This document shows, piece after piece, positions 5,364 through 63,437 of a stretch of DNA of 64,000 nt (positions are counted from its first letter, which is position 1; every line of letters starts with the position of its first letter). A program made the translations under genes and the position numbers. The stretch comes from Weeksellaceae bacterium (GTDB lineage: Bacteria > Bacteroidota > Bacteroidia > Flavobacteriales > Weeksellaceae). Where the stretch lies: positions 496,001 through 560,000 of the forward strand of contig JAIBEX010000009.1 of NCBI GenBank assembly GCA_019459455.1. Reading direction: 5' to 3'. Below the pieces are notes generated by a model, which worked only from the letters and a program-made list of their open reading frames with translations, made no database searches and had not been told where the DNA came from.

Positions 5364-6044
5364 ATGTTTTTACAGACCCCTACTCAAATTGTAAACACAA
5401 CCACCGAAACACACGTATTTTCTCTCTGGGAAATCCTTTTCAGCGGCGGAATCATAGGAAATTCAATTATGATCGCCATTTTTCTCCTTGGAATCCTGGC
5501 TCTTTACATCTTTCTTGAAAGATATTTTTTCATCAAAAGGTCCTCAAAGGAAACGCCTAACTTTCTTGAGAACATTAAGGATTTTGTGCAGGAAGGCAAA
5601 ATACAGACCGCAGTAGATTACTGTAAAACAATCGATTCCCCTGAAGCACGGATGATTGAGAAAGGACTGGCAAGAGTAGGGCGGCCCATTTCCGATATTT
5701 CCAATGCGATGCAGAACCAGGGACAACTGGAGGTTTCCAAGCTGGAAAAAAACCTGAATATCCTGGCTTCGGCTTCCGGAGCTGCGCCAATGCTGGGCTT
5801 TTTAGGAACTGTGGTGGGGATGATCATGGCCTTCTTTGAGATTTCTAATGTTACTGGAGCCGTAAGTCCAAAACTGCTCGCTTCCGGCATTTATACTGCC
5901 ATGGCCACAACCGCTGTTGGCTTGTTTGTTGGGATTCCCGCTTATTTTTTCTACAATATACTGGTGACCAATGTGGACAGGCTCGTTTTAAAGGTCCAGA
6001 CACATGTTAATGAATTTCTGGATGCGCTGAACAAGCCACTTTGA
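5364..6044 (+). CDS. exbB: MotA/TolQ/ExbB family proton channel protein
   Basis: 226-residue inner-membrane protein of the ExbB/TolQ family, which with ExbD makes the proton channel that powers TonB. Three membrane segments are visible: about residues 30-52, 135-160 (LGFLGTVVGMIMAFF) and 172-195 (AMATTAVGLFVGIPAYFFY). The small-residue-rich ASGAAPMLGFLGTVVGM stretch is the family core. It is first in a tight operon with exbD and a TonB-type gene, so the complex probably energises TonB-dependent outer-membrane receptors. TolQ is the alternative, but the TonB neighbour favours ExbB. Confidence 0.9.
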   Translation: MFLQTPTQIVNTTTETHVFSLWEILFSGGIIGNSIMIAIFLLGILALYIFLERYFFIKRSSKETPNFLENIKDFVQEGKIQTAVDYCKTIDSPEARMIEKGLARVGRPISDISNAMQNQGQLEVSKLEKNLNILASASGAAPMLGFLGTVVGMIMAFFEISNVTGAVSPKLLASGIYTAMATTAVGLFVGIPAYFFYNILVTNVDRLVLKVQTHVNEFLDALNKPL

Positions 6045-6110
6045 TATCGCAAACAACCATAAAATCTTAGAAACCACACCAAATTAAGACAGCATCAAAC
6101 CTTATCATTG

Positions 6111-6512
6111 ATGGAATTAAAAAGAAAGAACAGAGTAAATGCGGAATTCAGCATGGCTTCAATGACAGACATCATCTTTCTGCTGTTGATATTTTTTATG
6201 ATTACAAGTTCTGCAATAAGCCAAAGTGCCATTGATGTAAAGTTGCCTAAGGCAGATGCCACGAATCCGAGCGTTCAGGATCCTTCTACGGTGACCATTA
6301 AACCCGATGGCAAATATTTTGTAAACGATAAGGAAATTCCAAAGGAACAGCTTGAAAACTATCTGGTCAATGAACTTAAAGGAGAGAACAATCCTGCTTT
6401 TACCATCAGAGCCGACGAGAATACCAAACATAAGGACGTAGTCTTTGTAATGGCCATCGCAGAAACCTATAAGTTTAATTTAGCAATCGCAACCACACAG
6501 GAAGAAGAATGA
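6111..6512 (+). CDS. exbD: ExbD/TolR family biopolymer transport protein
   Basis: 133 residues. It has a short cytoplasmic N-terminus, one membrane helix (SMTDIIFLLLIFFMIT) with the conserved membrane aspartate that carries protons, and a periplasmic domain. The ATG at 6111 is chosen because the upstream extension uses only a TTG at 6108 and adds one residue. The last bases overlap the next start in ATGA, indicating translational coupling with the TonB-like gene. With ExbB it forms the stator of the Ton motor. Confidence 0.92.
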   Translation: MELKRKNRVNAEFSMASMTDIIFLLLIFFMITSSAISQSAIDVKLPKADATNPSVQDPSTVTIKPDGKYFVNDKEIPKEQLENYLVNELKGENNPAFTIRADENTKHKDVVFVMAIAETYKFNLAIATTQEEE

Positions 6513-7390
6513 GTTTAGCCATAAAACATAAGGATTTTGAAGAGAGAGACCGCCGCAAAAGCGCGGCCATAACCTTTATAGTCTCTTTACTGGTTTTTTT
6601 GGGCATTTTCTTCTATAAGTTTACTAAAATCACAGAAAAGCCGGAGGAAATCACCACCATGCTCATCAACTTTGGTGACAACCGGAATGGGAATGGTGCT
6701 GAGGAACCCGCCGAAGAGGAAGGGAGCCTGGCCGCTGTTCAGGATATTTCAGTTCCGGAGCCTGCGGAGCAAAATGTTACCAAATCGCAGCAGGAAATGA
6801 GCGCACAGCCCATTCAACCTGTCGTGAAAGAAAGAGTTTTAACAGGCAGTAATACCAGAGTTACGACTCCTAAAACTGAAAAAACAGTCAAAACAGTCAG
6901 CAAAACCTCTGCTAAAACCGCCGTTACGAAACCGGCCAGCGTAAAGACTTCATCTAGTAAAGCGACCACTGCCAATTCCAGGACCGGGAGTGGCGATGGC
7001 AAAGGAACAGCCGCCATTGGTAATCTAATAAAAGGAAGAGGCACAAAGACCGGTACTCAGGGAACGAGTGGTACTATTGGAAATGCCGGAGATCCTTTGG
7101 GAGGCGATGGCAATGGCGATAGCAGGATTGGTGTAGACAGAAACCTTGTCGGATTCATTCCCGGAACAGAGGGCAGGGGTGGTTCGCAACCTCAGAATAA
7201 TTGTACAGCAACCGGTACCATTTCTATAGCCTACACGGTAGATAAAGCCGGAAACGTAGTTTCTGCCAGACGTTCCGGCGGCATTTCAGATGCCTGTGTT
7301 GTTTCAACCTCCATTTCGTGGGTAAAGAATTATGTTAAAGCGGAAAGAGCGGCTACCTCCTCCACAGGAACCTACAGGATTACGTTTTAG
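6509..7390 (+). CDS. TonB-like energy transducer
   Basis: 293 residues: a basic cytoplasmic N-terminus, one membrane helix (about residues 21-37), a long disordered periplasmic spacer rich in Ser, Thr, Lys, Ala and Gly (about residues 60-210), and a small C-terminal TonB-like domain (about residues 225-293) with GTISIAYTVDKAGNVVSARRSGG. The C-terminal domain contains two cysteines (NNCTATG and SDACVV), a possible disulphide. The spacer is Thr/Lys and Gly rich instead of the Pro-Lys repeat of E. coli TonB. It is the third gene of the exbB-exbD operon and is translationally coupled to exbD. Confidence 0.82.
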   Translation: MSLAIKHKDFEERDRRKSAAITFIVSLLVFLGIFFYKFTKITEKPEEITTMLINFGDNRNGNGAEEPAEEEGSLAAVQDISVPEPAEQNVTKSQQEMSAQPIQPVVKERVLTGSNTRVTTPKTEKTVKTVSKTSAKTAVTKPASVKTSSSKATTANSRTGSGDGKGTAAIGNLIKGRGTKTGTQGTSGTIGNAGDPLGGDGNGDSRIGVDRNLVGFIPGTEGRGGSQPQNNCTATGTISIAYTVDKAGNVVSARRSGGISDACVVSTSISWVKNYVKAERAATSSTGTYRITF

Positions 7391-41826: not shown

Positions 41827-42192
41827 TTGGCAAAAAGAACGACATATAAACCACAGAAGAAACTGACTTTTATAGACATTATAAAGGGAAATTTTCTGAA
41901 CAGGGACGAAATAAAGACCCACTACCGGTATTTCCTGCTTCTTTTCGTGCTGATGATGGTCATGATTTACAGCAACCACCTTGTAAACCAGAAAATAGAG
42001 GTTGTAAACGAACTTAAAGAACAGACAGAAGAATACAAATCGAGGAATGCGTACGCGCAGAGCAGGCTCATCAAAGTAAAAATGGAGTCTGAACTGGGAA
42101 AGGAAATGATCCGGGATTCGCTGCTCCCTTTGGAAAGCCATCCTCATAAATTATTGATAAAACTGGACAGTACCGATGCAAAAGCAAAGTGA
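41827..42192 (+). CDS. ftsL: FtsL-like division protein
   Basis: 121 residues, a short bitopic protein. It has a basic cytoplasmic N-terminus, one membrane helix (about residues 34-52, YRYFLLLFVLMMVMIYSNH), and a periplasmic coiled-coil (VNELKEQTEEYKSRNAYAQSRL). Sequence similarity to FtsL is low, as usual, so the name rests on position between rsmH and ftsI plus topology. The start appears to be TTG at 41827, with AGGTGA upstream; no ATG gives a full helix. The 3' end overlaps ftsI by 17 bases. Confidence 0.8.
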   Translation: MAKRTTYKPQKKLTFIDIIKGNFLNRDEIKTHYRYFLLLFVLMMVMIYSNHLVNQKIEVVNELKEQTEEYKSRNAYAQSRLIKVKMESELGKEMIRDSLLPLESHPHKLLIKLDSTDAKAK

Positions 42193-44167
42193 TTTCGACA
42201 ACAAAAGACGTAAGACGTTAAGATGGGGCTACCTTTTTGCTTTGGTGGCGTTTCTTGTCTTTGTGCTTTTTCTTGCCCGGATTCTAATATTGCAGAACAC
42301 CAACGTTCAGGAAATCAAGCAGGATTACATCAGTAAGAATTACCGAGAGGCCAAACTGAAAGCTGCCCGAGGAAATCTGTACGCTTCAGACGGCTCGATC
42401 CTTGCCACCACGGTGATGAGGTACGACATCTACATCGATTTCAAGGTAATCAGAGATTCTGTTTACAGCAACAACATCGGGGCACTTACGGATTCACTCA
42501 ATGTGATGTTCGGGAAACCGAGGAGTATTTACCGCCAGAGGTTCGATGAGCAGCGGAGGAAGAAAAACCAGTATTATTCTCTCGCTAAAGGTCTTGATTT
42601 TGATGAATACGACCGCATACGCAAATTTCCCATTTTCAAAAGAGGCAAGAACAAAGGTGGTTTCATTGTAGACCGTAATTTCAAGCGGGAACTCGCCACT
42701 ACGGAAATAGGTGCCGGGACCATCGGTATGGACAACGGGCAGTATAAATCGGGGCTTGAAGCAGCATTTTCCAAATATCTTTCCGGAACTGATGGTACCC
42801 GACTGGAACAGCGGGTGAATTCAAGCCAATGGAAGCCTATAGATTTCTGGAGGGCCAAGGAACCCGTAGACGGACAGGATGTTTTCACCACACTGGACTT
42901 AAGGATTCAGGATATTGCCCATTCAGCGCTCGAAAAACAGTTGATTAAATTCAATGCACATCACGGAAGCGTCCTGGTTATGGAAGTGGCTACCGGTAAA
43001 GTTCGCGCGATGGTCAATTTGACCAGAACAGAACCCGAGGTTTATGTAGATACCTATAATTATATCCTGAAAGACGGAATTGAGCCCGGTTCCACCTTTA
43101 AAACCGTTTCACTTCTTGCCGCAATGGACGACGGCTTTATCGATGAAAAAACAACGGTCAATGTAGGCGGTGGCGTTTGGAATTACGCAGGACAGAGAAT
43201 TTCTGATGGGCACGGTGGCGGTACCTACGAGATAAGCGATGTGCTTGCAAAATCAAGTAATGTGGGCACAGCCAAGCTCATCACGCAACATTATGCGGAC
43301 AACCCACAGATATTCCTGAATCATTTGAAACGCTGGAAGATGTTTGATAAAATGGATATTGAACTTCCCGGAGTAACCAAACCTAAGATTGTAACCCCGG
43401 AAAACAAAAGATGGAATGCAGCCACCCTTGCTTCCATTTCTTACGGCTACTCTACCAACTTTAATCTGCTTCAGCTTACCACTTTCTATAATGGCGTAGC
43501 AAACAAAGGAAAGATGGTAAAACCACTGTTCATAGATAAGATCATGCAGGACGGAAAAGTCACCTATGAAGCGAAAGCGGAAGTGATGGTAAGTAAAATG
43601 GCGTCTAAAGAGGCCATTGAAATGATGACCTACGCACTTACAAAAGCAGTGGAAAAAGGAACAGCGCGAAGCATTTTTACCCCCAACCTGAAAATGGCGG
43701 GGAAAACAGGTACTGCCCGTTTCGAATACTGGCTTCCCGGACCTATGAAATACAGGGCCTCATTTGCAGGTTTTTATCCGGCAGATAAGCCGAAATACAC
43801 CTGCTATGTGATGGTAGACCAACCGGATGTGTCCAAAGGATTTTATGGTGGCCTCGTGTCGGCACCTGTTTTTAAAGAAATTGCCGGAAAGACCTTCCTG
43901 AAGACTCCACAGAACATAGAACAGTCCATGCTTGTAGACAGGAAAGTGGACCTGTCCAAAATGACTGCACCGAATGTAAAAGTAACAGTGACCAGGGGGC
44001 GCATGCCAAGCTTAGTAGGTTTGATAGGCAAAAATGTGATTCCGCAACTTGAAAATGCAGGTTACCGCGTGGATTATAAGGGAGTCGGCAAAATAAGGGA
44101 ACAGTTTCCGGAAGTGGGAACGGTCATCAGCAGGAACCAGCGGATTTATCTGAGTCTGCAGAATTAA
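42176..44167 (+). CDS. ftsI: Septal peptidoglycan transpeptidase FtsI (PBP3-like) with a C-terminal PASTA domain
   Basis: 663 residues. N-terminal membrane anchor (about residues 19-40), pedestal domain, then the class B transpeptidase: S-x-x-K at Ser306-Lys309 (PGSTFKT), S-x-N at residues 360-362 (KSSNVG) and KTG at 510-512 (AGKTGTARFEY). A PASTA-like domain follows (about 605-663, MPSLVGLIGKNVIPQLENAG), absent in E. coli FtsI but seen in Gram-positive SpoVD-type proteins and Bacteroidota. It cross-links septal peptidoglycan with FtsW. Confidence 0.94.
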   Translation: MQKQSDFDNKRRKTLRWGYLFALVAFLVFVLFLARILILQNTNVQEIKQDYISKNYREAKLKAARGNLYASDGSILATTVMRYDIYIDFKVIRDSVYSNNIGALTDSLNVMFGKPRSIYRQRFDEQRRKKNQYYSLAKGLDFDEYDRIRKFPIFKRGKNKGGFIVDRNFKRELATTEIGAGTIGMDNGQYKSGLEAAFSKYLSGTDGTRLEQRVNSSQWKPIDFWRAKEPVDGQDVFTTLDLRIQDIAHSALEKQLIKFNAHHGSVLVMEVATGKVRAMVNLTRTEPEVYVDTYNYILKDGIEPGSTFKTVSLLAAMDDGFIDEKTTVNVGGGVWNYAGQRISDGHGGGTYEISDVLAKSSNVGTAKLITQHYADNPQIFLNHLKRWKMFDKMDIELPGVTKPKIVTPENKRWNAATLASISYGYSTNFNLLQLTTFYNGVANKGKMVKPLFIDKIMQDGKVTYEAKAEVMVSKMASKEAIEMMTYALTKAVEKGTARSIFTPNLKMAGKTGTARFEYWLPGPMKYRASFAGFYPADKPKYTCYVMVDQPDVSKGFYGGLVSAPVFKEIAGKTFLKTPQNIEQSMLVDRKVDLSKMTAPNVKVTVTRGRMPSLVGLIGKNVIPQLENAGYRVDYKGVGKIREQFPEVGTVISRNQRIYLSLQN

Positions 44168-52149: not shown

Positions 52150-53202
52150 ATGAAAAACAAGTGGAGAATATTGAAGATACTTGCAACGGTGATCATTTTT
52201 GGTCTGCTGCTGAGTTTTTCATTGAAGCGTTTCAATAACGCCTCCATGGAAAAGGTGTCGGTCAATATGGTCTACCCCGCCAATAAGGAGAAGGTGTACT
52301 TTATAGACGAGAAAAACGTAAGGAATTTCATCAGCAAATCAAACCCTACTGGAAGGATAGGCGACATTGATATACCTGCCATGGAAAAGGAAATGAACCA
52401 TTTTCCTTCGGTGGACAGTGCCAACGTTTACCTGAACCTGAACGGCCACCTGAATGTTGATATCGTACAGCGGGTGCCGGCGTTCAGACTTAACAGGGAC
52501 GGCCTGGACTTTTATGTAGATGATAAAGGAAATGAATTCCCAATCTCCAAAACGTACTCGCATCCTTCCATGCTCGTGCAGGGTGATGTAAAACGGGGTG
52601 AATATGTGAAACTCGCAGAGTTGGTAGGTAAGATTGACAAGGATGACTTCAGCCGGAAATATTTCATTGGTGTTTCAAGGGAAAAAGGTGGCTATAACCT
52701 ACTAACCAGCGACGGACACTATAAAGTGGAAATTGGCACGCTGGACAATATTGAACTAAAGGTCAAAGGATTCAAGACTTTTGTTGAGAAATTCTTGGTG
52801 TACCAGCAACCGGACAAATACAGCAGGGTATCGGTAAAATATGACAATCAGATTGTAACGACCCTCAATCCTTATTTTGAGGAAAATGACAGCATCATTA
52901 CCGCGGCTGGCAGGGAACTGGAAAAAATTCCGGCCCTTGCCGAGAAAAAGGCTGCAGCGGTGCTGAAAGCGGCCACAAAAAAGCCGGAAACGAAACCCAG
53001 GGAAAAGCCTAAGATCAAGCGTAAGGTCACAGCCGATGCCAAATCCAATGTCACGCCCACCCGCAAAAAAGCGGAAGCTAAGACGCCGGAGAAACCAAAA
53101 ACTGCAGCAACAACCAAACCTAAAACGGCCGCAAAGCCTGCGATTGCGAAACCAAAGACGGAAACTACTCCAAAAAAGAAGGCAACGGTAAAGATTGAGT
53201 AA
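52150..53202 (+). CDS. ftsQ: FtsQ-like division protein with a histone-H1-like C-terminal tail
   Basis: 350 residues. A short cytoplasmic N-terminus and one membrane helix (about residues 8-24) are followed by a periplasmic part. Residues 44-112 form a POTRA/FtsQ-type fold (EKVYFIDEKNVRNFI; NGHLNVDIVQRVPAFRLNRDGLDFYVDDKGNEFPIS). It recruits later division proteins. The last 85 residues (266-350) are almost only Lys, Ala, Pro and Thr, ending PKKKATVKIE, very unlike E. coli FtsQ. Such a tail would be strongly basic and unfolded. Position between murC and ftsA supports the name. Confidence 0.88.
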   Translation: MKNKWRILKILATVIIFGLLLSFSLKRFNNASMEKVSVNMVYPANKEKVYFIDEKNVRNFISKSNPTGRIGDIDIPAMEKEMNHFPSVDSANVYLNLNGHLNVDIVQRVPAFRLNRDGLDFYVDDKGNEFPISKTYSHPSMLVQGDVKRGEYVKLAELVGKIDKDDFSRKYFIGVSREKGGYNLLTSDGHYKVEIGTLDNIELKVKGFKTFVEKFLVYQQPDKYSRVSVKYDNQIVTTLNPYFEENDSIITAAGRELEKIPALAEKKAAAVLKAATKKPETKPREKPKIKRKVTADAKSNVTPTRKKAEAKTPEKPKTAATTKPKTAAKPAIAKPKTETTPKKKATVKIE

Positions 53203-53250
53203 GTAACGCAGTAAAATAATTAATTCAGAAAAAATCAAATCGACATACAA

Positions 53251-54624
53251 ATGGAAAATCAAGAGTATTCAGTAGGACTCGATATCGGAACAACGAAAAT
53301 TGTTGCGATTGTTGGCCGGCGCAACACTCACGGAAAAATAGAAGTTCTGGGAGTGGGCAAAGCGAAAAGTCTGGGGGTTCACAAAGGCATCGTGAACAAC
53401 ATTTCCCAAACCATTAACTCTATAAAAGCCGCCGTAGCGGAAGCACAGGCAAGTTCCGGAGTGGCAATCCACAAAGTTACCGTAGGAATAGCAGGCAAAC
53501 ACATCCGTTCACTGCAGCATTCCGATTATATAATGAGGGAAAACCCCGACCAGTTCATCAGCGAAGATGATATTGATGCCCTGAAAGAGCAGGTCAAGAA
53601 GTTGGTTATGCTGCCGGGCGAAGAGATCATCCATGTCCTTCCACAGGAATATAAGGTTGACAGCGAAGGTGAAATCCACGAGCCGGTGGGTATGCACGGA
53701 AAGCGTCTGGAAGCTAATTTCCATGTGGTGGTTGGACAGATGGGCAGCATCCGTAACATCGCACGGTGTGTAAAGGAAGCAGGTCTTGAAATGGAAGCTC
53801 TGACGCTCGAACCTTTGGCCTCATCGGAAGCGGTGTTAACCAAGGAAGAAAAGGAAGCGGGAGTTGCCATCATCGATATCGGTGGGGGAACCACAGATAT
53901 CGCTATTTTTAAAGACAATATCATTCGCCATACCTGTGTGATTCCGTACGGAGGAGGCATCATAACCGATGATATTAAGGAAGGTTGTTCCATCATTGAA
54001 AAACATGCAGAACAGCTGAAGGTGAAGTTCGGCTCTTCACTGCCCGATATGGAAAAGGAAAGTACCTATGTCACCATTCCCGGCCTTCACGGTAGGGCAG
54101 ACAAGGAAATTTCCTTACGCACACTGGCCGAAATCATTGGGGCACGCGTTGAGGAAATTCTGGAAATGGTGAACATAGAACTGAAGGCATATGGTGCATT
54201 CGAGCAGAAGAAAAAACTGATTGCAGGAATCGTACTTACCGGCGGTGGGTCCAACCTTAAGAATTTAAGACAGTTGGCTAATTTCAGTACAGGTTTTGAC
54301 AGTCGGATCGGTTTTGCGAACGAATATGTTGCCAATGACAAAAACCATTACCTGAAAGGACCTGAATATGCAACCTCAATCGGGTTGCTGATGGAAAGTC
54401 TCAAGATCCGCGACAAAAGAACAGTTTCCCCTGCGGAAGAGGAGATTATCAAGGAAAAACAGCCATTAGCTGAAATTCAGACCGAAAGGTCGGGTCCTCA
54501 GGAATTTATGCCTCAAAGCCAAAACCAGGTAATGGAAGAAGCAGTGGAGAAGCGCAGAAAAGGACTTACTTTCGGACAGTCTTTAATGGAAAAAGTAAAA
54601 AAATTCTTTGAAGAGGTAGAATAA
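53251..54624 (+). CDS. ftsA: Cell division protein FtsA
   Basis: 457 residues, actin-fold protein that tethers FtsZ to the inner membrane. Phosphate motifs: VGLDIGTTKIVAIVGR at the N-terminus and IIDIGGGTTDIAIF near residue 209. The 1C domain is present (VHKGIVNNISQTINSIKAAV, RSLQHSDYIMRENPDQFISEDD). The C-terminal amphipathic membrane-targeting helix is visible: FGQSLMEKVKKFFEEVE. It precedes ftsZ by 48 bases. Confidence 0.97.
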   Translation: MENQEYSVGLDIGTTKIVAIVGRRNTHGKIEVLGVGKAKSLGVHKGIVNNISQTINSIKAAVAEAQASSGVAIHKVTVGIAGKHIRSLQHSDYIMRENPDQFISEDDIDALKEQVKKLVMLPGEEIIHVLPQEYKVDSEGEIHEPVGMHGKRLEANFHVVVGQMGSIRNIARCVKEAGLEMEALTLEPLASSEAVLTKEEKEAGVAIIDIGGGTTDIAIFKDNIIRHTCVIPYGGGIITDDIKEGCSIIEKHAEQLKVKFGSSLPDMEKESTYVTIPGLHGRADKEISLRTLAEIIGARVEEILEMVNIELKAYGAFEQKKKLIAGIVLTGGGSNLKNLRQLANFSTGFDSRIGFANEYVANDKNHYLKGPEYATSIGLLMESLKIRDKRTVSPAEEEIIKEKQPLAEIQTERSGPQEFMPQSQNQVMEEAVEKRRKGLTFGQSLMEKVKKFFEEVE

Positions 54625-57105: not shown

Positions 57106-57151
57106 TTTAATACCACGGATATTCAACCTTTGCATATCGATTTGATTTGGG

Positions 57152-61152: not shown

Positions 61153-61584
61153 ATGTTTGCAATTGTAGAAATAGCAGGGCTTCAATACAAAGTTGAGCAA
61201 GACCAGAAGTTGTTTGTAAACCGTTTGAAAGGTGAAAAAGGAGACAAGGTATCTTTTGATAAGGTTCTTCTTACCGTAAACGGTTCAACAACAGTAGGCG
61301 CCCCGGCTGTAAGCGGTATCACCGTGGATATCGAAATTTTAGACCACGTTCAGGCGGACAAGGTAATCATCTTCAAGAAGAAAAGAAGAAAAGGTTATGC
61401 TAAAAAGAACGGTCACAGACAACAGCTTACTCAAATCATCGTAACCGGTATCACCGGCTTTGATGGCGAGAAGAAAGCCAAAAAGGCGGAACCGAAACCG
61501 AAAAAAGAAGCAGCAGTTACAGAAGAAGCAACACCTGCAGCTAAAAAAACCACAAAGAAATCTGACAGCGAAACCGCTGAATAA
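61153..61584 (+). CDS. rplU: Ribosomal protein bL21 with an extended basic tail
   Basis: 143 residues versus 103 in E. coli. The core MFAIVEIAGLQYKVEQDQKLFVN, VLLTVNGSTTVGAPAV and FKKKRRKGYAKKNGHRQQLTQIIVTGI is standard bL21. A C-terminal extension of about 40 residues is rich in Lys, Ala, Glu and Thr (from KKAKKAEPKPKKEAA). First gene of the usual L21-L27 pair; rpmA starts 26 bases later. Confidence 0.97.
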   Translation: MFAIVEIAGLQYKVEQDQKLFVNRLKGEKGDKVSFDKVLLTVNGSTTVGAPAVSGITVDIEILDHVQADKVIIFKKKRRKGYAKKNGHRQQLTQIIVTGITGFDGEKKAKKAEPKPKKEAAVTEEATPAAKKTTKKSDSETAE

Positions 61585-62015: not shown

Positions 62016-63437
62016 ATGTTAAAGAAAATCTACCTTTTCGGCTTTCTCTTTGTAGCCTTATGCGCTGTAAACGCCCAAAACAACCCCCTAATCCTTAAAT
62101 TCTTTGTAAGCGATGCCGCGGACGCAAAGATACGGCTTAATACGCAAGGCACTTATGCTTACACCTATGTGAAAACTAATAATGCTTCCATAACGGGAAG
62201 CGGTTCAGGCGTTTCAGGTTTAACGGAGATTACGGTGCCGTCTATTGGGACTTACAATGTATCTATTACACCAACTGGTATCTTTAGATTTAATGGCGGA
62301 CCAGATATTGATAAAATTGTTGAACTAACGCAGTGGGGACAAATTAATTGGAATACAAATCTGGCAGGAATGTTCGCAGGATATGCCAATATTCAAATTA
62401 CAGCCACCGATATTCCTGACTTTTCGGGAGTAACAAATCTGAACTCTTTTTTTTCAGGTTGTACCAATCTCTCAATTGTAAACAATATAAACAATTGGAA
62501 TGTCAGCAGTGTTACTGATATGAGTAGCTTATTTTATAACGCAAAAGCATTTAACAAGCCAATTGGTAATTGGAATACTACAAATGTAACTAATATGAAT
62601 AGAATGTTTTTTTATGCTGACGCATTCAATCAAGATATAAGTAGTTGGAATGTTGCAAATGTAACTGATATGAGCTACATGTTTAATCGAGCCAAGGCAT
62701 TCAACCAAAATATTAATAGTTGGAATGTTTCAAATGTTCAGAATATGTCGATGATGTTCGAGGCATCGCAGGCATTTAATCAACCTTTAAATAACTGGAA
62801 TACCTCCAATGTTACAAATATGTCTCAAATGTTTATGTATCCCAGTTTTAATCAAGATATTTCCTCATGGGATGTTTCAAATGTAACTAATATGTCCATG
62901 ATGTTTTGGTCCAATTCAAGTTTCAATAAAAGTTTAGGAAGTTGGACACTCTCCCCATTAGTAAATTTAACCGAAATTTTTGGTTATAGCGGTTTAGATT
63001 GTGGAAATTATGGTGCGACTTTAAAGGGGTGGGCTGACAATCCAAATTCTCCACTTGGGAGATTAGTGGGAGCAGTGGGAAGGTCTTTTGGTAACGGAGG
63101 CCAAATTTACCGCAATCAATTAATTAACAGTAAGGGATGGACGTTTGTTGGAGACAGCTACTCTCCAGGTTGTCTGGAGCCTTTTTTAGCTGTTGAGGAT
63201 CTAACTTCAGGAAAAACCAAACTGACGCTATACCCCAACCCCGCTGCAGAAACGGTTTTCATAAAATCGGAACAGAGAACGAAATCGGTCCAGCTAATCG
63301 ATGCTTCAGGGAAAATTGTGCTTAATGCTGCGCAGACCAACCAAATAAGTGTACATCACCTGCCTGCGGGCGTTTATTTTGTAAAGGTTACCCTTGCCGA
63401 CGGATCGGAGAGTACCCATAAACTTATCAAGAAGTAA
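62016..63437 (+). CDS. BspA-type repeat surface protein with a type IX secretion sorting domain
   Basis: 473 residues. Signal peptide MLKKIYLFGFLFVALCAVNAQ. Residues about 20-130 are a beta-rich domain. From about 130 to 320 there are about seven repeats of 23-25 residues of the DUF285/BspA type, with the pattern FNQDISSWNVSNVTNMSxMF. Residues about 395-473 form a Por-type sorting domain (LTLYPNPAAETVFIKS, LPAGVYFVKVTLADGSESTHKLIKK), which directs export by the type IX system and surface attachment. Such proteins may mediate adhesion; the target is unknown. The repeat region is visibly more AT-rich than neighbours, with Asn codons mostly AAT. Confidence 0.9.
   Translation: MLKKIYLFGFLFVALCAVNAQNNPLILKFFVSDAADAKIRLNTQGTYAYTYVKTNNASITGSGSGVSGLTEITVPSIGTYNVSITPTGIFRFNGGPDIDKIVELTQWGQINWNTNLAGMFAGYANIQITATDIPDFSGVTNLNSFFSGCTNLSIVNNINNWNVSSVTDMSSLFYNAKAFNKPIGNWNTTNVTNMNRMFFYADAFNQDISSWNVANVTDMSYMFNRAKAFNQNINSWNVSNVQNMSMMFEASQAFNQPLNNWNTSNVTNMSQMFMYPSFNQDISSWDVSNVTNMSMMFWSNSSFNKSLGSWTLSPLVNLTEIFGYSGLDCGNYGATLKGWADNPNSPLGRLVGAVGRSFGNGGQIYRNQLINSKGWTFVGDSYSPGCLEPFLAVEDLTSGKTKLTLYPNPAAETVFIKSEQRTKSVQLIDASGKIVLNAAQTNQISVHHLPAGVYFVKVTLADGSESTHKLIKK

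Follow-up and report, generated by a model that had tools for sequence, protein, structure and literature searches.

FtsQ of a Chryseobacterium-like bacterium is extended by a basic linker ending in a conserved C-terminal peptide

The analyzed stretch of DNA, 64 kb in length (the window), comes from a Chryseobacterium-like bacterium and contains an ORF of 350 amino acids at positions 52150-53202 of the plus strand, located between murC and ftsA-ftsZ, with Pfam profiles identifying a Mur ligase upstream and FtsA and FtsZ downstream. The ORF itself yielded no match to Pfam at E 0.01 or to NCBIfam at E 0.1, including any to a curated FtsQ or POTRA profile, a silence that we ascribe to the sensitivity limit of the profiles and consider outweighed by gene order and predicted fold (POTRA-like plus beta domain), by which the product is FtsQ: all eight matches of its AlphaFold model to PDB entries at E ≤ 0.001, as retrieved with Foldseek, are FtsQ structures, the best being 8hhf_Q (E 1.6e-9), and the matches to 8hhf_Q, 5z2w_A, 2vh2, 6h9o and 2vh1 range from E 1.6e-9 to 1.7e-8. 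The N-terminus is basic, and the model has a helix at residues 2-29; its pLDDT lies for the most part between 80 and 90 as far as about residue 190, and is lower thereafter. In known FtsQ proteins, an N-terminal membrane helix leaves the C-terminus on the periplasmic side, and by this topology the tail described below is probably periplasmic.

The last 85 residues of this FtsQ (residues 266-350, corresponding exactly to codons 52945-53199) include 25 Lys, 16 Ala, 14 Thr, 10 Pro and 6 Glu; Lys, Ala, Pro and Thr together make up 65 of 85 residues (76%), and the net charge is +21. Both the extent of this segment and its dominance by these four residues had been put forward in a preliminary description of the locus and proved exact; its view of the tail as a long basic periplasmic extension agrees, as to the side, with known FtsQ topology, and the positive charge is usually kept in relatives. 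When the 56 longest non-overlapping ORFs of the window were scanned, the maxima in the other 55 (14,382 segments of 85 residues) were 49% for the four residues and +13 for charge, the runner-up in both respects being an ORF at 6509-7387, a probable TonB adjoining the ExbB/ExbD genes. ExbB, ExbD and this TonB-like ORF, which has no Pfam match, lie in a row at 5364-7387. Ribosomal protein L21, encoded at 61153-61581, is extended at its C-terminus by about 40 residues, in which Ala, Thr, Lys and Glu abound towards the end. The “PK-rich repeats” noted earlier in the FtsQ tail hold loosely, as a compositional bias, but not as a repeat array: Tandem Repeats Finder detected in the tail DNA a single weak 12-nt array of 2.4 copies with a score of 37, and a tandem repeat array at the DNA level was rejected on that score. 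Residues 276-350 have a pLDDT under 50 in the AlphaFold model (single chain, 21-row alignment), and the tail is probably disordered. Behind the core, three parts can be distinguished (Table 1).

Table 1. Parts of the FtsQ ORF, with positions in the window
Feature	Residues	Position	Strand	Basis
FtsQ core: predicted N-terminal membrane helix followed by periplasmic FtsQ-type domains	1-238	52150..52863	+	ORF, AlphaFold, Foldseek
Juxta-core segment	239-265	52864..52944	+	Column counts in relatives
Basic Lys/Ala/Thr/Pro linker	266-341	52945..53172	+	Composition, pLDDT, pN, length variation
Conserved extreme C-terminal peptide (tip), KKKATVKIE	342-350	53173..53199	+	Family counts, codon analysis, genome pattern search

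FtsQ was detected in 318 of the 320 genomes of the family, and 138 FtsQs from these 318 were tabulated, the choice being non-random in that it took sequences that were best-scoring, divergent, or from genera g1, g6, g12 or g23. Excluded from the 138 were L127 (G280), which ends in KAKIKIE, so that one motif-bearer remains uncounted, L114, which is outside the family, and L171 and L172, which are ten-base placeholders. G251, with a masked stretch (X) in its tail, is within the 138 and absent from the tree and the column scans; three damaged g6 tails are also absent from the latter. Thirty named loci overlap the 138 set and were kept separate. The C-terminal motif [VI]x[IV]E ends 96 of the 138 tabulated FtsQs. 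The juxta-core segment, counted by columns in these 96 and in up to 19 motif-less FtsQs, has the consensus LNPYFKENDSI....KELAK.P, which is kept in tail-bearing and tail-less FtsQs alike. The linker of the 96 motif-bearers ranges from 16 to 92 residues (median 53), and its sequence also varies between species; over the 96 it consists of 32% Lys, 13% Thr, 11% Pro, 11% Ala and 10% Glu, with aromatic residues nearly absent.

The family consensus of the FtsQ end is K-x-K-A-K-[VI]-K-[IV]-E-COOH. For the 96 motif-bearers, the selection rule dictates V or I at position -4, I or V at -2 and E at -1, which accordingly occur in all 96, while the remaining tip positions were free to vary and have K in 92 of 96 at -9, K in 95 at -7, A in 78 at -6, K in 83 at -5, and K in 82 at -3. 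In g12, the end reads VVVE in eight of ten members and VIVE in two. For the last nine codons, compared over motif-bearing rows without gaps, pS and pN were 0.625 and 0.075 in g6 (1485 pairs), 0.666 and 0.129 in g23, 0.170 and 0.026 in g12, and 0.672 and 0.160 between genera (2705 pairs); the nine codons before them gave pN of 0.48, 0.54, 0.35 and 0.60, respectively, values that are inflated because indels were compared without gaps. All four Val codons (GTA, GTT, GTG and GTC) are in use in the tip. Judged from these substitution patterns, the constraint on the tip is strong and acts on the protein, not on the DNA.

In genera g1, g6, g12, g15, g20 and g23, the motif is present in 93 of 96 tails of at least 60 residues, and in only one of 12 short tails, that of G287, which retains a KALVKIE end behind a linker of only 16 residues with a charge of +5, so that the tip can be kept despite shrinkage of the linker. 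The three long motif-less tails of the six genera comprise a frameshift with KAKVKIE readable in another frame, a stop lost after KATVKIE, and an end reading KAKVTKE. In L049 (Chryseobacterium sp. CH25) and L166 (G137), the tail is frameshifted in lysine-codon-rich DNA, with normal end codons found downstream or in another frame, due either to recent mutation or to sequencing error. In L156 (G172), loss of the stop behind KATVKIE extends FtsQ by six residues.

The tip pattern has exactly one exact occurrence in this genome; its three one-mismatch occurrences equal those of the control. The possibility of a general C-terminal tag shared with other envelope proteins was rejected: a stricter pattern, with Lys fixed at -5, yielded 12 matches in 12 of 80 family genomes, seven of which are FtsQ ends by their coordinates (G033, G035, G039, G243, G249, G256 and G286), while those in G204, G209 and G250 are hardly genes, as their open frames have only 21, 22 and 10 codons, and those in G288 and G315 are located away from ftsQ.

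By genus, motif-ending FtsQs number 55/58 in g6, 10/10 in g12, 26/33 in g23, 1/2 in g15 and 1/4 in g1, the last being that of the present genome; the sole tabulated members of g19, g20 and g32 also end in the motif, as do 25 of the 30 named loci, many of them in Chryseobacterium species. The three congeners of the host (G288, G289 and G290) lack the tail, having 37-44 residues after the core as opposed to 112 here, and seven of the 33 g23 species end 34-50 residues after the core. Outside the six genera named above, tails of at least 60 residues are found with the motif in two cases and without it in seven, and long motif-less tails occur in g2, g9, g10, g17, g18 and g27. Directly behind the stop codon of the G283 and G260 FtsQs, an in-frame T-K-M-K-I-E-stop can be read by eye, which by its sequence is a remnant of the tip; an automated pattern search for such vestiges downstream of truncated tails flagged only G137. 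In a rapidly built tree of FtsQ cores (88 of the 138 rows, with g6 and g12 thinned), motif presence requires 15 changes, a count that includes the three damaged g6 tails, with at least six changes on well-supported branches; the g32 and g19 motif-bearers branch off close to the base of the tail-holding part, at a fork that the tree does not resolve. The tail was lost repeatedly, and the simplest reading of these sequences, of which the tree is no proof, would be a single origin in the family preceding the losses. The absence or random variation in close relatives that the preliminary description had named as the contrary outcome holds for the congeners, which are tail-less, and for the linker, which varies freely, but not for the last nine residues, which are conserved.

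Beyond the family, the surveys of the order and the class were based mainly on open-frame lengths among the matches listed. Among these matches, FtsQ frames from the remainder of the order have 239-273 codons, which is too short for a tail, so that the comparison across Flavobacteriia recommended earlier is too broad; 13 listed frames of the order read past a stop and are hence uninformative. At the class level, 17 long-frame FtsQs were taken from among the matches listed: two had no tail on reading, and those of G564, G560, G593 and G502 (L239-L242), which belong to other families, have long Lys/Pro-rich tails without the KVKIE end. The motif was seen in none of the FtsQ ends read in the order and class outside the family. 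Basic FtsQ tails therefore seem to have multiple origins, as these four do not carry the motif.

A variable linker followed by a constant tip is the usual form of a tethered docking peptide, as exemplified by FtsZ, in which a variable disordered C-terminal linker precedes a short conserved docking peptide; FtsZ differs from the FtsQ tail in being a different, cytoplasmic protein with another peptide and known partners. TonB offers a parallel in the envelope, since it too is membrane-anchored and spans the periplasm with a disordered linker, of about 70 proline-rich residues with Lys-Pro repeats according to PMC10771500; its end, however, is a folded domain for binding transporters of the outer membrane, while the tail described here ends in a nine-residue peptide, there being no Pfam match to a C-terminal TonB domain in FtsQ (nor is there one in the probable TonB of the window) and no fold predicted after residue 276. 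Given the variable linker with its constant tip, these two parallels, and the strand-like alternation of Lys with A/V/I, we favor on balance the view that the FtsQ C-terminus is a flexible basic tether ending in a docking peptide for a specific protein partner. That the last nine residues are nearly unchanged while the middle is free also suggests a docking tether rather than a histone-like polymer binder.

In such an arrangement, the N-terminal helix would anchor FtsQ in the inner membrane, with the folded part in the periplasm, and the flexible Lys/Pro-rich linker leaving the end of the fold could cross much of the periplasm, its extended reach being at most about 25 nm by simple arithmetic (85 residues of about 0.3 nm each). 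The linker may be loosely drawn to anionic envelope surfaces, acting as a tether and a weak surface binder at once. In the tip, lysines would alternate on one face with A/V/I on the other, ending in the carboxylate of the invariant terminal glutamate. This tip would bind a specific envelope protein, the most plausible mode being the addition of a beta-strand to the sheet of its partner, much as FtsB contributes its own final strand to the FtsQ sheet (PMC6134095). Counter to docking, the tail is dispensable, since the three congeners, seven of the 33 g23 species and some further FtsQs do without it; a general need for it is excluded by the congeners. The long motif-less tails outside the six genera, and the AlphaFold model, in which the tip has no defined place, also speak against docking.

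A less likely reading, which we regard as improbable without dismissing it, is that the tail acts as a general polycation whose charge attaches it to an anionic polymer, be it peptidoglycan, lipid A phosphates or some other, its exact sequence being irrelevant. The linker is indeed positively charged in all 96 motif-bearing FtsQs (median +11, with three of 96 below +8), Lys/Pro-rich tails exist without the motif in the four other Bacteroidia listed above, and PMC9652317 reports binding of peptidoglycan by S. aureus DivIB and of teichoic acid by DivIC. Charge alone, however, cannot explain the tip, since a general polycation would not need conserved last nine residues: the tip is far more conserved than the linker, its V/I positions and final Glu are unnecessary for binding by charge, and it is kept next to the 16-residue linker of G287 or where linker charge is low (+4 in G248 and +5 in G287).

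We give still less credence to a fold-back of the tip onto the sheet of its own or a neighboring FtsQ, where it would compete with DivIC in an autoinhibitory manner. In its favor, FtsB binds FtsQ by strand addition to the last FtsQ strand (PMC6134095), and an intramolecular tail-core autoinhibition is reported for B. subtilis FtsZ (PMC12747378). Among 179 scored core columns, N115 and D163 take the first and second rank in tracking the motif and could be taken in the same sense, but the scan over independent pairs (73 of 110 rows) rests on four supported pairs, of which the best columns agree in about 2.5, which is non-significant after 179 columns, and N115 is missing from motif-bearing G315 (g32) and G248 (g19), so that we treat this co-variation as a lead only. 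AlphaFold, run on the single chain with the 21-row alignment, placed the tip nowhere on FtsQ, leaving it free in the model. Moreover, the C-terminus of DivIC has the same pattern, EEIFI[LMI]V.DS, in all 22 genomes examined, motif keepers and losers alike, and the notion that DivIC has lost its FtsQ-binding strand where the tip is present was rejected on these grounds.

It is also quite improbable that the tip merely caps the chain against periplasmic carboxypeptidases or tail-specific proteases, with no docking partner: its location at the extreme end, the final Glu in every motif-bearer (which is part of the selection rule) and the shortness of most motif-less tails in the six genera, as if evolution had trimmed capless tails, would fit such a cap, but conservation over nine residues in an alternating pattern and the long motif-less tails in g2, g9, g10, g17, g18 and g27 speak against it. 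Finally, a role in the nascent chain or mRNA, by which the basic tail and last codons would slow down translation or couple ftsQ with ftsA, is very improbable, for although the motif immediately precedes the stop codon and lysine runs can slow ribosomes, the distance from the ftsQ stop to ftsA varies from 16 to 124 nt across 93 motif-bearing loci, the same ftsA leader DNA is found in most tail-less g1 and g23 loci, synonymous sites of the tip vary freely, and G172 has no stop codon behind the motif.

Returning to the docking tether, we looked for partners whose presence follows that of the motif. DivIC does not track it, being present in each of the 11 motif-bearing and 11 motif-less genomes inspected, and SPOR proteins gave matches, near threshold, in 6/11 motif-bearing versus 13/15 motif-less genomes, i.e. 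in the opposite direction. A known receptor cannot be read across, because the motif was seen in no protein other than FtsQ. As a possible, more speculative extension, FtsQ of the Chryseobacterium branch may use its TonB-like linker to present a dedicated peptide to an undiscovered envelope protein, forming a lineage-specific link of the divisome, perhaps to the wall or the outer membrane, that was discarded several times where there was no need for it.

Comparison with E. coli FtsQ and S. aureus DivIB shows a common fold, the same murC-ftsQ-ftsA-ftsZ order and, by prediction, a single N-terminal membrane helix, to which the FtsQ described here adds a basic linker of about 85 residues plus the conserved C-terminal peptide. 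Linker histone H1 and bacterial histone-like tails rich in Lys, Ala and Pro resemble the FtsQ tail in composition, and the likeness to H1 drawn in the preliminary description does not go further than that: FtsQ has no Pfam domain, the linker-histone globular domain included, the periplasm is without DNA, and histone tails lack a counterpart of the conserved end peptide. A histone-like function was rejected, composition being its sole support. As the FtsQ end is strand-like, a type IX secretion sorting signal was also considered and rejected: neither Pfam nor NCBIfam gave a match to Por_Secre_tail (about 75 residues) in FtsQ, while the same profile library does detect it in the ORF at 62016-63434.

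A search of the open-licence literature found no paper on FtsQ tails in Bacteroidota, and this lineage-specific extension, in which a basic linker leads to a conserved C-terminal peptide, is apparently undescribed; coupling of the divisome to the wall and outer membrane seems little studied in Bacteroidota. The nine-residue peptide is a ready bait, which can be synthesized, fished with, deleted or transplanted, and species that have lost it beside sister species that keep it provide matched controls for a partner search by gene presence or co-variation.

Several other features of the window deserve mention. Upstream of ftsA, which starts at 53251, lies the sequence AAAATCAAATCGACATA at 53231-53247. 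Among the 133 of 138 loci that could be parsed for ftsQ-ftsA spacing and leader, 106 have an element AAATCAAAT[CT]G that begins 18-22 nt upstream of the ftsA start, independently of the FtsQ tail and of spacer length, and that may be regarded as a candidate leader or regulator site. Its near copy, with three mismatches, occurs at 57133-57149 on the minus strand, and the count of the element across the window is within chance (11 of 100 shuffles gave at least two matches). Positions 42176-44164 encode an FtsI-like penicillin-binding protein that carries a PASTA domain at its C-terminus.
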